Source: Alphaproteobacteria bacterium (GTDB lineage Bacteria; Pseudomonadota; Alphaproteobacteria; Caulobacterales; Aquidulcibacteraceae). Taken from it: 33,697 nt of DNA. Both the position numbers and the translations under genes were made by a program. The notes below the pieces were generated by a model that saw only the letters and a list, made by a program, of their open reading frames with translations, was not told the DNA's origin and ran no database searches. The stretch lies in assembly GCA_026400735.1 (NCBI GenBank), contig JAPLOL010000105.1, forward strand, positions 1-33,697, written 5' to 3'. Positions 6,442-19,021 of the stretch are shown one piece after another; the stretch's first letter is position 1, and the number at the start of each line of letters is the position of its first letter.

Positions 6442-7337
6442 TTCCGCACCCGCACAGGCAGCGGCACATTGCAGAGATTGATGTGGCCCACTGGCTCCAA
6501 GAACCAGCTCTCACGGCGGAAGCGGCGGCTGTCGATCACATCGCGGAACGTCGCGCTATCGGTACGCAGCGCTTCGAGGTTTACGCGTTCGCTCGCGGGC
6601 AACTCCGAGCCCAAACGCACTGACGTGATCGTCGTGCGCTCGGCCGGCGTTTCGTAGAACCCGAGCGCACCAGTGCCGCGCGGCATCGTTGAGAGCAGCT
6701 CCATGCCCTGCAACACGCGGCCCACTGTTGCGATGTTGCGATCGAGGTGACGTGGCGCGTGGCCTATCACGACGTAGAGTTCAGCGCCGCTGCCGCTATC
6801 GGCGGTGTCACCGCGCCCAGCGCCGACCATGCCGTAGCAATGCGCCATCCATGTCTGACGCCCATCGCTGGCGACCGGAAAGCCATTCGCGAAACCAACT
6901 TCTCGCGCATATGAATCTGGATCGGGCAGACGTGTGATCTGCACGCCATGACGCGGGCGATCAAACTCCGGCGCCAGCGTCGGTGTGCCCGATCCCATCG
7001 GGCGCGGGTCCGCTTCGTCGCGGCCCCATTGCACCACGTAGTTTTCCTGGCTGCGCACAATCGCGGCGCCGTCCCAGTAATGCGCGCGCGCAAGAGCCTG
7101 GATGTTGGCTGCGTGCAAAGGCGTGTAGTCGGCGGCGAGTTCTATAATCACGCGGCCCTGGGGCAGTTGCATATAGAGCAGATTACTCTGGTCGACGGCC
7201 CTCCAATCACCTGCCGGCGATTGTTCCAAAATCTCGCTCAGAGAGCGCACGGCCGGCGCTTCTCCACTTGCGGCCGGCGCCTCCGCGCTCGCGCACGCCG
7301 CCAGAAACCCAAGCGCCATCAAGCCAAAAAGCCGCAT
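6438..7337 (-). CDS. Cyclophilin-type peptidylprolyl isomerase, predicted lipoprotein
   Basis: A 299-residue protein beginning with a lipoprotein signal (LAAC lipobox, C15). From about residue 55 it follows the cyclophilin fold: LPQGRVIIELAADYTPLHAANIQALARAHYWDG, ENYVVQWGRDE, a GMVGAGRG block and HLDRNIATVGRVLQGM. Presumed role: prolyl isomerase or chaperone anchored in the envelope; several canonical catalytic positions diverge, so activity is not assured. Start ATG 7337 has GGAGGGG just upstream. Confidence 0.85.
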   Translation of the reverse strand: MRLFGLMALGFLAACASAEAPAASGEAPAVRSLSEILEQSPAGDWRAVDQSNLLYMQLPQGRVIIELAADYTPLHAANIQALARAHYWDGAAIVRSQENYVVQWGRDEADPRPMGSGTPTLAPEFDRPRHGVQITRLPDPDSYAREVGFANGFPVASDGRQTWMAHCYGMVGAGRGDTADSGSGAELYVVIGHAPRHLDRNIATVGRVLQGMELLSTMPRGTGALGFYETPAERTTITSVRLGSELPASERVNLEALRTDSATFRDVIDSRRFRRESWFLEPVGHINLCNVPLPVRVRN

Positions 7338-12480: not shown

Positions 12481-12553
12481 CCTTCGACAAGCTCAGGCTG
12501 ACGACGACGAGAGCGCAGGCTCTGCAAAATCGTCACCCTGAGCCCGTCGAAGG
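12481..12553. repeat. Dispersed palindromic repeat (TTCGACAAGCTCAGG type)
   Basis: The 23-nt arm at 12481-12503 (CCTTCGAC..GCTCAGG..TGACG) and its inverted partner at 12531-12553 match at 20 of 23 positions, separated by 27 nt. This sequence type recurs in many intergenic regions of alphaproteobacterial genomes, to my knowledge. It lies in the acnA upstream region, 6 nt after the DUF4349 stop, and could fold as a transcript-end hairpin. Confidence 0.85.
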
Positions 12554-12733: not shown

Positions 12734-12782
12734 ATGCCATCTCTGAACTCATTTAACGCCCGCACCACGATCAGCGCGGGCG
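12734..12782 (+). pseudogene. Detached N-terminal codons of aconitase (out of frame with the body)
   Basis: ATG 12734 begins [16 protein letters not shown], the normal first ~16 residues of bacterial AcnA. After GGC at 12779-12781 the frame runs off into an unrelated reading, while the aconitase body resumes in another frame at [11 protein letters not shown] (12786). About 24-26 codons that normally link the two (the Tyr/Phe-Ser-Leu and GLGD..RLP stretch) are absent. Either a deletion with frameshift or an assembly gap. Confidence 0.75.
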
Positions 12783-15356
<2,574 letters not shown>

Positions 15357-16157: not shown

Positions 16158-17158
16158 GCGCTCGGGACCAACATGTTCAGCGGTGGCGCAAGCGCCTGCG
16201 CTTCCGTGTCGTTGAGCGCGTAAGCCCAATCGGATGATGGCGTATTGAGCGCCACCGCCGCAGCTTCTTGCTCAGGCGCGCTCGCCCGCGCGACCATCTT
16301 CACCCAGAGGTGGTTGTCGCTCGGAATGATCTCCGCATCGATGACAATGCCGTCAAACGTCGTTGCTCGCACGCGGGCGCGCGGTGCGCCCTGGACCGCA
16401 GGCGCGGTGCGCACGTCGATGGGTGAAAGCTGCGTGAGGCGCTCTGCCGTCGTGGTGATCGTCGATTGCGCGAGCGACGCCAACGCCGGCGATACGAGCC
16501 GCCAAGGCTGATCGGCCCCATCGCGTGCAAGAATATATGCACGCCCTTCAGCGGGCATGATCTCGACGCGCGCAAGGTGCTCCGGCGTCAAATTGATCGG
16601 CTGCAAATCCAACCAAGTTGTAGGGTCGCGCAACGGCGGCAAATCGCCCTGAACCGACCATGTCTGATCATCATCCGGCCGGCGCACATAAGTGCCGCCC
16701 GTTTCCACACCAAGGATGAGATTCACAACCAAGGCGCCGTTTCCATCTTCGATTTGCAGAAGGATGCCGCGCCCGCCTTGCCGCGGGTCGGTGACGCCGA
16801 GGCGTTCGTGCCTGGACGCATCGCTCGACATCCGACGCACGTAGCGAAGCGACTCCAAACCCTGCGTGAGCTGCGCCAGCCGCGCAGACGAAACTGGGTA
16901 GTCGTCGCGATCACGCAACGCCCAACCCTGCTGCGTACGCTCGATGCGATAGGTCGCTTCCGCGCTCGTCACAGTAATGCGCTGCGCCCCGCCAATCGAT
17001 TCCTCAAGCCTCGGAAGCACCGGACCTTGGATGCTAGACGGGCTCGAATTGCGCGCCTCGATCCCAACCGTCACGGCCGCCGTCGCAACCAGCGCGCCAG
17101 CAATCAAAAACAGCGTGAGCGAACGCGCTCTGCGGCGTTCAGCCAAACCCGAACTCAT
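16151..17158 (-). CDS. DUF4340 domain-containing protein of Gld-type ABC system
   Basis: A 335-residue protein with one N-terminal membrane segment (SLTLFLIAGALVATAAVTVG) and a periplasmic part with repeated beta-rich DUF4340-like modules: AEATYRIERTQQGWALRDRDDYPV, LQIEDGNGALVVNLILGVE, GTYVRRPDDDQTWSVQGDL, WLDLQPINLTPEHLARVEI. The frame is open from 17236, but ATG 17158 overlaps the GldG-like stop as ATGA and gives a normal membrane anchor. Last gene of the gldA-gldF-gldG-DUF4340 operon. Function unknown. Confidence 0.85.
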   Translation of the reverse strand: MSSGLAERRRARSLTLFLIAGALVATAAVTVGIEARNSSPSSIQGPVLPRLEESIGGAQRITVTSAEATYRIERTQQGWALRDRDDYPVSSARLAQLTQGLESLRYVRRMSSDASRHERLGVTDPRQGGRGILLQIEDGNGALVVNLILGVETGGTYVRRPDDDQTWSVQGDLPPLRDPTTWLDLQPINLTPEHLARVEIMPAEGRAYILARDGADQPWRLVSPALASLAQSTITTTAERLTQLSPIDVRTAPAVQGAPRARVRATTFDGIVIDAEIIPSDNHLWVKMVARASAPEQEAAAVALNTPSSDWAYALNDTEAQALAPPLNMLVPSAQ

Positions 17159-18867
17159 CGCGCCGCACTCCCGCGCCGCTGACGGCGCCAGAACAAGAAC
17201 AGCCCCGCGGCCGCGATCAGCAGCGGCGCCAGCCAAACGTTGATGAAGATTACAAGTGCTTGCAGGCGCTCGATGTCGCCGCGCAGGTCGCGGGCGAGTC
17301 CGCGCAGATCGGTGCGGATTTGTGTTTCGCGCGTTCGGAAACGATCGACTTCCGCCTGCTCTTCTGGTGTCAGCTCGGCGCCAAGATCACCGGCAAAGAA
17401 GCCTGACCCACGCCCACGCGCTTGCAATTGCTGTAGACGTGTCTGCGTTTCTTGCAGGTCCGCCTCAAGTTCACGTTGACGGCTCTCAATGCGCCGCTGC
17501 GCATCGCGCTCCATGTCGTCGAGCAACTTCATCTTGCGCTCTGCAGGCGCGCGCGAGCGCAACGACACCAGTGCGTCTGAGCCGCCGAGAACGTCAATGG
17601 CGTTGAGCGCGAACGAGGCATTGTCCGCCGCCGTACCGCCGCTTTGCGGATCGACGTAGAAATCGTCGGCGAGGAAGTCAGTGTCCGCGACGAGCACGAT
17701 CTGAGCCGGCGTCGCCGAAGTGCGCAGTTGCGCAGCTTGCGGTGCAGGCGCCTGCACCGGGGTCGTCGGTTGCTCTGTCGGCGGGCCTTCCGGCGCCGCC
17801 GCCTCATCCGCTGGCGGCGGACCGTCTGGGAACGCCGTCGTCAGATTGCCCGACAGACGCACAGCCACGTTTTCGCGACGCCCGCCGCTCGCGGGCCACA
17901 TGCTGTAAATGTCCGTCGGCGATGGGCGCATCAGCGCCTGCGCAGCCGGCATCCGCATGGTGCGTCCGCTGGTGCGGATCAACGGGGTGAACGTGACGCC
18001 CTCGTGCTGCGTGCGCTGTGTGATACCGCCCGCGAGACCGAAATTGATGCCACGGCTCAGCCAGGCCGTCATCAGATCTTGTCGATCGAGACCAGTCTCG
18101 GCCGGCACTTGGAAGAAGAGTGGCTGCGGCGCCTGGCCGGTCTGACCTGTTTGCGGATCTTGAACAGAAACCGGCAACGCGCCTTCCTGATCAAGCACAA
18201 CTGTTGGCGCCATCTGCACGCCCCACGCGCCAAGCAACGGCTCCAGCGTCGAAGCCGTCGGCGCAGGCATAGACGGACTAAACGGATCGAAGTCTTGACC
18301 GCTCATCGCCGCCTGCATTGACGCAGGATCGAGCGCGATGAACGCGCGACCGCGCCGCAAAATGAATTGATCGATTGCGTAAAGCTGCGCTGACGTCAAA
18401 GCGCCCGGATGTACGATCGCCAACACATTGGTGTTGTCAGGGATCGCGCTGAAATTCGGCGGCAGCTTGGTGACATCAAGCACGCGCCCCATTTCAGTCG
18501 CAAACATCGACTGGCTGCCGGCGCGAAAGGTTGGATCGGCGGCGGCCGCAGGATCGATCGGCAGCGACGTGATCAACGCGATGTGCGCGCGCTCGGGATT
18601 TTCCAACTCATAGATGAGCCGCGTCAGTTCGTATTCGAGGAAGGACTCGCGTTGCGGAGTGAACACGGGAATGACGCGCGTATCGTCGATCGCATTGGCG
18701 CCAACGAGGCCGAAATAGATAGGGTCCGCACCTTCGTAAGGCCGCAACGCTTGGATACCGGCTTCCGAAGCCGTGTCTTCGGCTTCAGTGAACGGCTCGA
18801 CGTTCACTTCTGTGAAGCGCACGCGCCCATGTGAGCGCGCTTGGAACGTTTGCAACATTTCACGCAC
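17155..18867 (-). CDS. GldG-like auxiliary component of Gld-type ABC transporter (body, N-terminus out of frame)
   Basis: A 570-residue reading from GTG 18867 containing the body of a GldG-type periplasmic protein: FTEVNVEPFTEAEDTASEAG, PIYFGLVGANAIDDTRVIP and FLEYELTRLIYELENP, an IFT52-like domain (HIALITSLP..), a Pro/Ala-rich linker, a coiled coil (DDMERDAQRRIESRQRELE onward) and a C-terminal membrane segment FINVWLAPLLIAAAGLFLFW with a basic tail. The gene normally starts with a membrane anchor; that part is present at 18860-19021 but in a different frame, with ~26-30 codons missing between. Stop overlaps DUF4340 by ATGA. Confidence 0.85.
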   Translation of the reverse strand: MREMLQTFQARSHGRVRFTEVNVEPFTEAEDTASEAGIQALRPYEGADPIYFGLVGANAIDDTRVIPVFTPQRESFLEYELTRLIYELENPERAHIALITSLPIDPAAAADPTFRAGSQSMFATEMGRVLDVTKLPPNFSAIPDNTNVLAIVHPGALTSAQLYAIDQFILRRGRAFIALDPASMQAAMSGQDFDPFSPSMPAPTASTLEPLLGAWGVQMAPTVVLDQEGALPVSVQDPQTGQTGQAPQPLFFQVPAETGLDRQDLMTAWLSRGINFGLAGGITQRTQHEGVTFTPLIRTSGRTMRMPAAQALMRPSPTDIYSMWPASGGRRENVAVRLSGNLTTAFPDGPPPADEAAAPEGPPTEQPTTPVQAPAPQAAQLRTSATPAQIVLVADTDFLADDFYVDPQSGGTAADNASFALNAIDVLGGSDALVSLRSRAPAERKMKLLDDMERDAQRRIESRQRELEADLQETQTRLQQLQARGRGSGFFAGDLGAELTPEEQAEVDRFRTRETQIRTDLRGLARDLRGDIERLQALVIFINVWLAPLLIAAAGLFLFWRRQRRGSAAR

Positions 18868-19021
18868 GCGCGCTGCGTAGGTTTGCAGCTGCGGCGTCGA
18901 TTGCGCCGCGTTGCGCGAATAATAGAGCGTCAGCTGAACGCGAATTAGCGATCACGTTCGACGCGATAAACGCGATGAACAAAGCCAAGGCAGCGAGGAG
19001 TGCATAGCGGCGTGCGCTCAT
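18860..19021 (-). pseudogene. N-terminal part of the GldG-like gene, frameshifted
   Basis: ATG 19021, three nt after the gldF stop, encodes MSARRYALLAALALFIAFIA and then SNVIANSR, the membrane anchor normal for GldG-like proteins. Reading on gives a stop at 18862-18860 after 53 residues. Shifting one base at about 18938 instead gives VQLTLYYSRNAAQSTPQLQT, then YAARVREMLQTF joined in frame to the body. The usual RLDLT..LYTLS..L-DEP segment between these parts is missing, so a deletion of roughly 80-95 nt is inferred. Confidence 0.8.

Follow-up and report, generated by a model that had tools for sequence, protein, structure and literature searches.

A 71-nucleotide gap near the start of an acnA gene, probably one of several local assembly errors in a draft genome

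An aconitase gene whose usual start lies in one reading frame and whose body lies in another raises the question of whether the organism carries a broken or shortened acnA or whether the assembly misrepresents a whole one. The gene lies in the window (the whole stretch of DNA that was analyzed, 33,697 nucleotides), which is the complete contig C53 of a draft genome, herein G000, comprising 3,577,138 bases in 173 contigs, 93.5% complete and with a listed contamination of 5%. G000 is probably a metagenome-assembled genome. As the original prediction stated, the usual AcnA start can be read at ATG 12734 in a frame other than that of the acnA body, which runs from ATG 12783 to 15356. The features of the locus are the following:

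12734 through 12782, plus strand: 5' remnant of acnA, 16 residues, aligned to the starts of relatives; its 59-nt left arm is 100% identical to G003
12781 through 12782, plus strand: acnA junction, lacking 71 nt that relatives have; CG is common to both arms
12783 through 15356, plus strand: remaining acnA frame, 857 residues from ATG 12783, with PF00330 and PF00694
12734 through 13012, plus strand: out-of-phase reading from the original acnA start, 92 residues and then a stop ending at 13012 (a dead end)

Compared with its relatives, the assembled gene lacks exactly 71 nt (23 codons plus 2 nt), with 2 nt (CG) common at the join, which sharpens the estimate of 70 to 75 nt missing with a frameshift made from the letters of the window. 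The same figure is obtained against the nearest relative, G003, and again against G027 and G029 in another alignment. What is absent from G000 belongs to the segment that links the two parts of acnA, which in relatives encodes roughly GKTFTYFDLKAASANGLGDISRLP. In G003 the left arm reaches query base 59 at position 6826 and the right arm begins from query base 58 at position 6896; identity to G003 is 100% over 59 nt (left) and 97% over 120 nt (right), so chance is not at issue for these arms. A search of G000 for the missing stretch elsewhere, using the G003 copy, gave 37 weak matches (E up to 10), none of which covers it; by E-value, the top match spans 26 bases at 92% identity.

The remaining frame belongs to AcnA. 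Residues 1 through 857 score far over the cut-offs of TIGR01341 (1364.1 vs. 945 bits) and NF006757 (1424 vs. 686 bits), both PF00330 (574.2 bits; cut-off 28.7) and PF00694 (146.1 bits; cut-off 22.8) are present, and identity to most congeners is 81 to 97%. SCTNTSNPS and a 13-residue stretch, which we take to supply the cysteines of the iron-sulphur cluster, can be read in the query sequence where it is aligned with 3sn2. The frame differs from AcnA at its beginning: the first 23 to 40 positions of the family models are absent (the match runs from 24 to 41 onward, and that to PF00330 begins at profile position 11 of 463), and the original start is in another frame, such that the N-terminal segment is not complete in one frame with the body. 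The body itself has no indel and dN/dS values of 0.04, 0.05, 0.07, and 0.10 against four relatives; it is under strong purifying selection, without decay.

ATG 12783 is no new invention, as Met stands at this position in nine of the congener loci compared (..LPMSLKV..); Ile, Val, Leu, or Tyr is found in others. A purine-rich ribosome-binding site is not visible before 12783 on reading the sequence, in agreement with the predicted lack of a Shine-Dalgarno ahead of this codon. Neither a sigma-70-like promoter nor an inverted repeat of length at least 12 was found near the acnA start, and RNA structure at the new start is nothing special (z −0.74). Upstream of acnA, at 12482 through 12553, there is a repeat-like intergenic element (CTTCGACAAGCTCAGG ... 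CCTGAGCCCGTCGAAGG), which sits at a spot where ∼20-nt indels set some relatives apart; the gene that follows acnA is a DUF1223 gene.

The original prediction had named relatives with the same short junction and a conserved ATG as one observation that would speak against it. No relative examined that covers the site has the short-junction form: the pattern is present in 1 of the 30 genomes of the genus (G000 only) and in 0 of 111 loci. The acnA region is matched by DNA in 27 of the 30 genomes, G000 included; G011, G012, and G028 give no match, and several others give the right arm only. In all 111 loci that reach the region, among 113 examined (L017 starts later and L028 is without the region), the remaining frame is preceded by an in-frame extension that is open over at least 42 residues; one of these extensions stays open as far as the edge of its locus. 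Not every locus is independent: L006 and L033, the latter being the best-matching named record (93% identity), sit on equally long contigs, are alike in what was compared, and are probably one record. A rough motif for the segment that links the two parts misses three of the 111, which nevertheless look like the rest when read. In an evenly drawn sample of 249 genomes from the order, the first 69 residues have a match in 242, and among the matches listed for this draw an open frame of 850 to 890 codons was found in G000 only; frames under 850 are those of G002, G021, G024, G126, G166, and G238, among the matches listed, with the matches in G002 and G024 running to contig ends. In G021 (C1:5506-8083) acnA is split into two pieces that overlap, perhaps because the frame is broken in this draft too.

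The search of G000 with PF00330 returned two genes, acnA and one on C133 that scores over cut-off as leuC; a second aconitase was thus not found by this search of a draft that is 93.5% complete. Because the draft is incomplete, the organism may have one.

Four more genes of G000, named from Pfam and NCBIfam matches, are broken by gaps, one of them within the window:

18939 through 18942, minus strand: GldG-like junction; 92 nt absent compared with G027, G029, and G006, with the frame shifted near the gene start
17155 through 18867, minus strand: remaining GldG-like frame, 570 residues, with PF09822 and DUF7088
18938 through 19021 (lower limit approximate), minus strand: 5' remnant of the GldG-like gene, MSARRYALLAALALFIAFIASNVIANS
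L127 (G000 C4), 10923 through 10926: parC deletion; 121 nt absent, the gene being split into frames of 501 and 238 residues
L198 (G000 C21), 478 through 484: rpoN deletion; 169 nt absent, frame shifted
L125 (G000 C2), 11717: marR-type deletion; 137 nt absent, frame shifted

The GldG-like gene (ABC-transporter-associated; 17155 to 19021, minus strand) has a match to TIGR03521 (GldG) that is under its cut-off, and its 92-nt deletion is private to G000. At each of the GldG-like, parC, rpoN, and marR-type sites, the two arms are separated in 10 of 10 relatives. ParC is generally essential, and a frameshift in the middle of its gene would be expected to kill the cell; a second parC was not found when the 93.5% complete draft was searched with PF00521, the other gene of this family that was found in G000 scoring best as gyrA. 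The rpoN lesion weighs less, because rpoN is dispensable in many bacteria.

The window differs from G027 and G029 at two more places, where G000 carries sequence that is absent at the same place in both: ∼370 nt at about 1394 through 1796, with a small lipoprotein-like reading, and ∼430 nt at about 28873 through 29343. At the latter, inverted TCATTCCAGA / CTGGAATGA-like ends flank a small reading, and the stretch may represent a small mobile element or repeat.

We counted sharp deletions of 25 to 400 nt in a sample of G000 (27 pieces, 429,030 bp, including 4,598 bp in two short contigs that read N) against 1,639,800 bp of the single-contig genome G027 (90001 through 1729800), an event being inside a frame if it fell within a G027 frame of at least 120 codons. 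A single control genome, G029, contributed 319,800 bp that were compared with the same G027 sequence. G000 has five sharp deletions in 181,457 aligned bp (acnA, 71 nt; GldG-like, 92 nt; parC on C4, 121 nt; marR-type on C2, 137 nt; rpoN on C21, 169 nt), all five within G027 frames and none of the five a multiple of three, whereas the control has three (341, 292, and 63 nt) in 284,125 aligned bp, none of the three in a frame. Recurrence in G000 is above that in the control, with few events and one control genome in the comparison. Assuming an equal rate in both genomes, the chance of all five in-frame events falling in G000 is ∼0.009, a value to be read with the small number of events and with the widening of the deletion set after the first three were known. 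Insertions in this final junction test number two in G000 and one in the control, none in a frame.

An earlier junction test, which took deletions of up to 600 nt against G027:90001-929800, gave three deletions and three insertions in G000, and three and three in G029; for G006 there were no events in 19,453 aligned bases. With G029 as the reference, G000 showed four deletions, the fourth (510 nt at C4:8682-8692) not being seen against G027. Frame switches were also scored gene by gene and affect 5 of 142 genes in G000 vs. 4 of 221 in the control. The large switches are confined to G000 (2 of 142, acnA −71 and rpoN −169, vs. 0 of 221), and the gene-by-gene scoring did not pick up the remaining three deletions; small switches of 1 to 8 nt occur in 3 of 142 genes vs. 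4 of 221. Small frame switches therefore look ordinary in G000, and the difference from the control lies in the large gaps.

The arms at the G000 joins come within a few bases of meeting exactly, with overlaps or shortfalls of −4 to +5, which suggests near-blunt joining across short gaps. Runs of N of the kind that mark scaffold gaps were not found within the contigs of the G000 sample, in which two short contigs are wholly N. The GC content of the missing stretches, taken from G027, is 0.55 to 0.69 and not extreme (G000 sample, 0.614 with N bases counted in). Inverted repeats at the five junctions slightly exceed in length those at randomly chosen places (P 0.024; a post hoc and weak result), and these could also fit a real, hairpin-mediated deletion.

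On comparison of the assembled sequences, the acnA gap is very probably a recurrent local assembly error, with the organism's aconitase gene most likely whole; the gap most likely does not exist in the organism. The original prediction had left two branches, a genuine deletion with translation from ATG 12783 and a faulty assembly, and it is the second that is favored, a real deletion being less likely: the lesion is private, the gene is the sole AcnA found, and four more frame-breaking deletions of 92 to 169 nt accompany it. An assembly error is favored because G000 has similar gaps in important genes that its relatives keep whole, and because the loss of parC, a generally essential gene, makes real lesions implausible. 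Taken together, the sole AcnA found, its indel-free body (dN/dS 0.04 to 0.10), and the split parC favor intact genes in a gapped assembly. The contig would then bring together two stretches that a further 71 nt separates in the organism, the contig ends that flank a short unassembled gap having been joined nearly blunt, and raw reads would not be expected to support the acnA join. Against this reading stand the GC content of the missing stretches, which is not extreme, the small number of events with a single control, and the nature of the joins: plain k-mer overlap does not leave arms that have hardly any sequence in common, and the explanation has to include a later joining step (gap closing or scaffolding) or chimeric reads.

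It is quite unlikely that the deletion is real and that the cell makes a shortened, functional aconitase (857 residues) starting at ATG 12783. An ATG does stand exactly where the remaining frame begins, the body of this sole AcnA is under strong purifying selection, and the frame retains its matches to PF00694 and to PF00330 (from position 11 of 463); yet the short form is seen in no relative of the genus and at none of the 111 loci, no purine-rich ribosome-binding site is visible before the new start, and the lost segment belongs to the family models (first 23 to 40 positions). Such a protein would also leave the parC, rpoN, and other junctions unexplained. Very little credence attaches to the related proposal that a real deletion was recently fixed and that aconitase begins 40 residues late, at a Met already present in some congeners; if this were true, the N-terminal segment of AcnA would be dispensable. 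A newly arisen null allele of acnA, carried by the strain or by a fraction of the population sampled, would leave the low dN/dS and the private junction that are observed, and the slight excess in inverted-repeat length across the five junctions agrees with it. We nevertheless hold it to be very improbable, given that no second aconitase is seen in the draft, that the same type of lesion strikes parC, and that five events in 181 kb extrapolate to about a hundred per genome if the rate holds.

The five frame-breaking deletions in 181 kb might instead be taken as the mark of an eroding genome, with many real pseudogenes arising through short deletions, but small frame switches are not clearly commoner than in the control (3 of 142 vs. 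4 of 221 genes), the size of G000 (3.58 Mb) is ordinary for the genus, and a parC lesion is unlikely to be tolerated; erosion of this kind is barely credible. We discount almost entirely the proposals that the short junction is a normal variant common to relatives or that the gap marks a chimera of two organisms. The junction is present in no relative, and although the draft is listed with 5% contamination, both arms match one nearest relative, G003 (100% and 97%), and the order of sequence on either side follows G027 and G029.

If the acnA gap is an assembly error, a genome listed as 93.5% complete may hold several frame-breaking gaps in core genes, and where such a draft lacks an enzyme or has it truncated, a metabolic loss should then not be concluded. 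If the lesion were real, it would test the need for the N-terminal segment of AcnA.

A literature search for N-terminal truncation of AcnA listed one paper, which by its title concerns a mycobacterial protease substrate. Assembly errors that affect genes have been described. Local assembly errors that lack read support are reported in metagenome-assembled genomes, and uncurated errors are noted to bring incomplete or incorrect protein-coding genes into databases (PMC7111523, Genome Res 2020); there, the error type is defined by read mapping, in contrast to the G000 case, which is known from assembled sequence alone. Many putative pseudogenes in public genomes are likewise products of assembly, in numbers that depend on assembler, platform, and coverage, according to Cooley and Wright 2024 (PMC11017572). 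Frameshifts and internal stops are named in its abstract, whereas the losses in G000 are of 70 to 170 nt.
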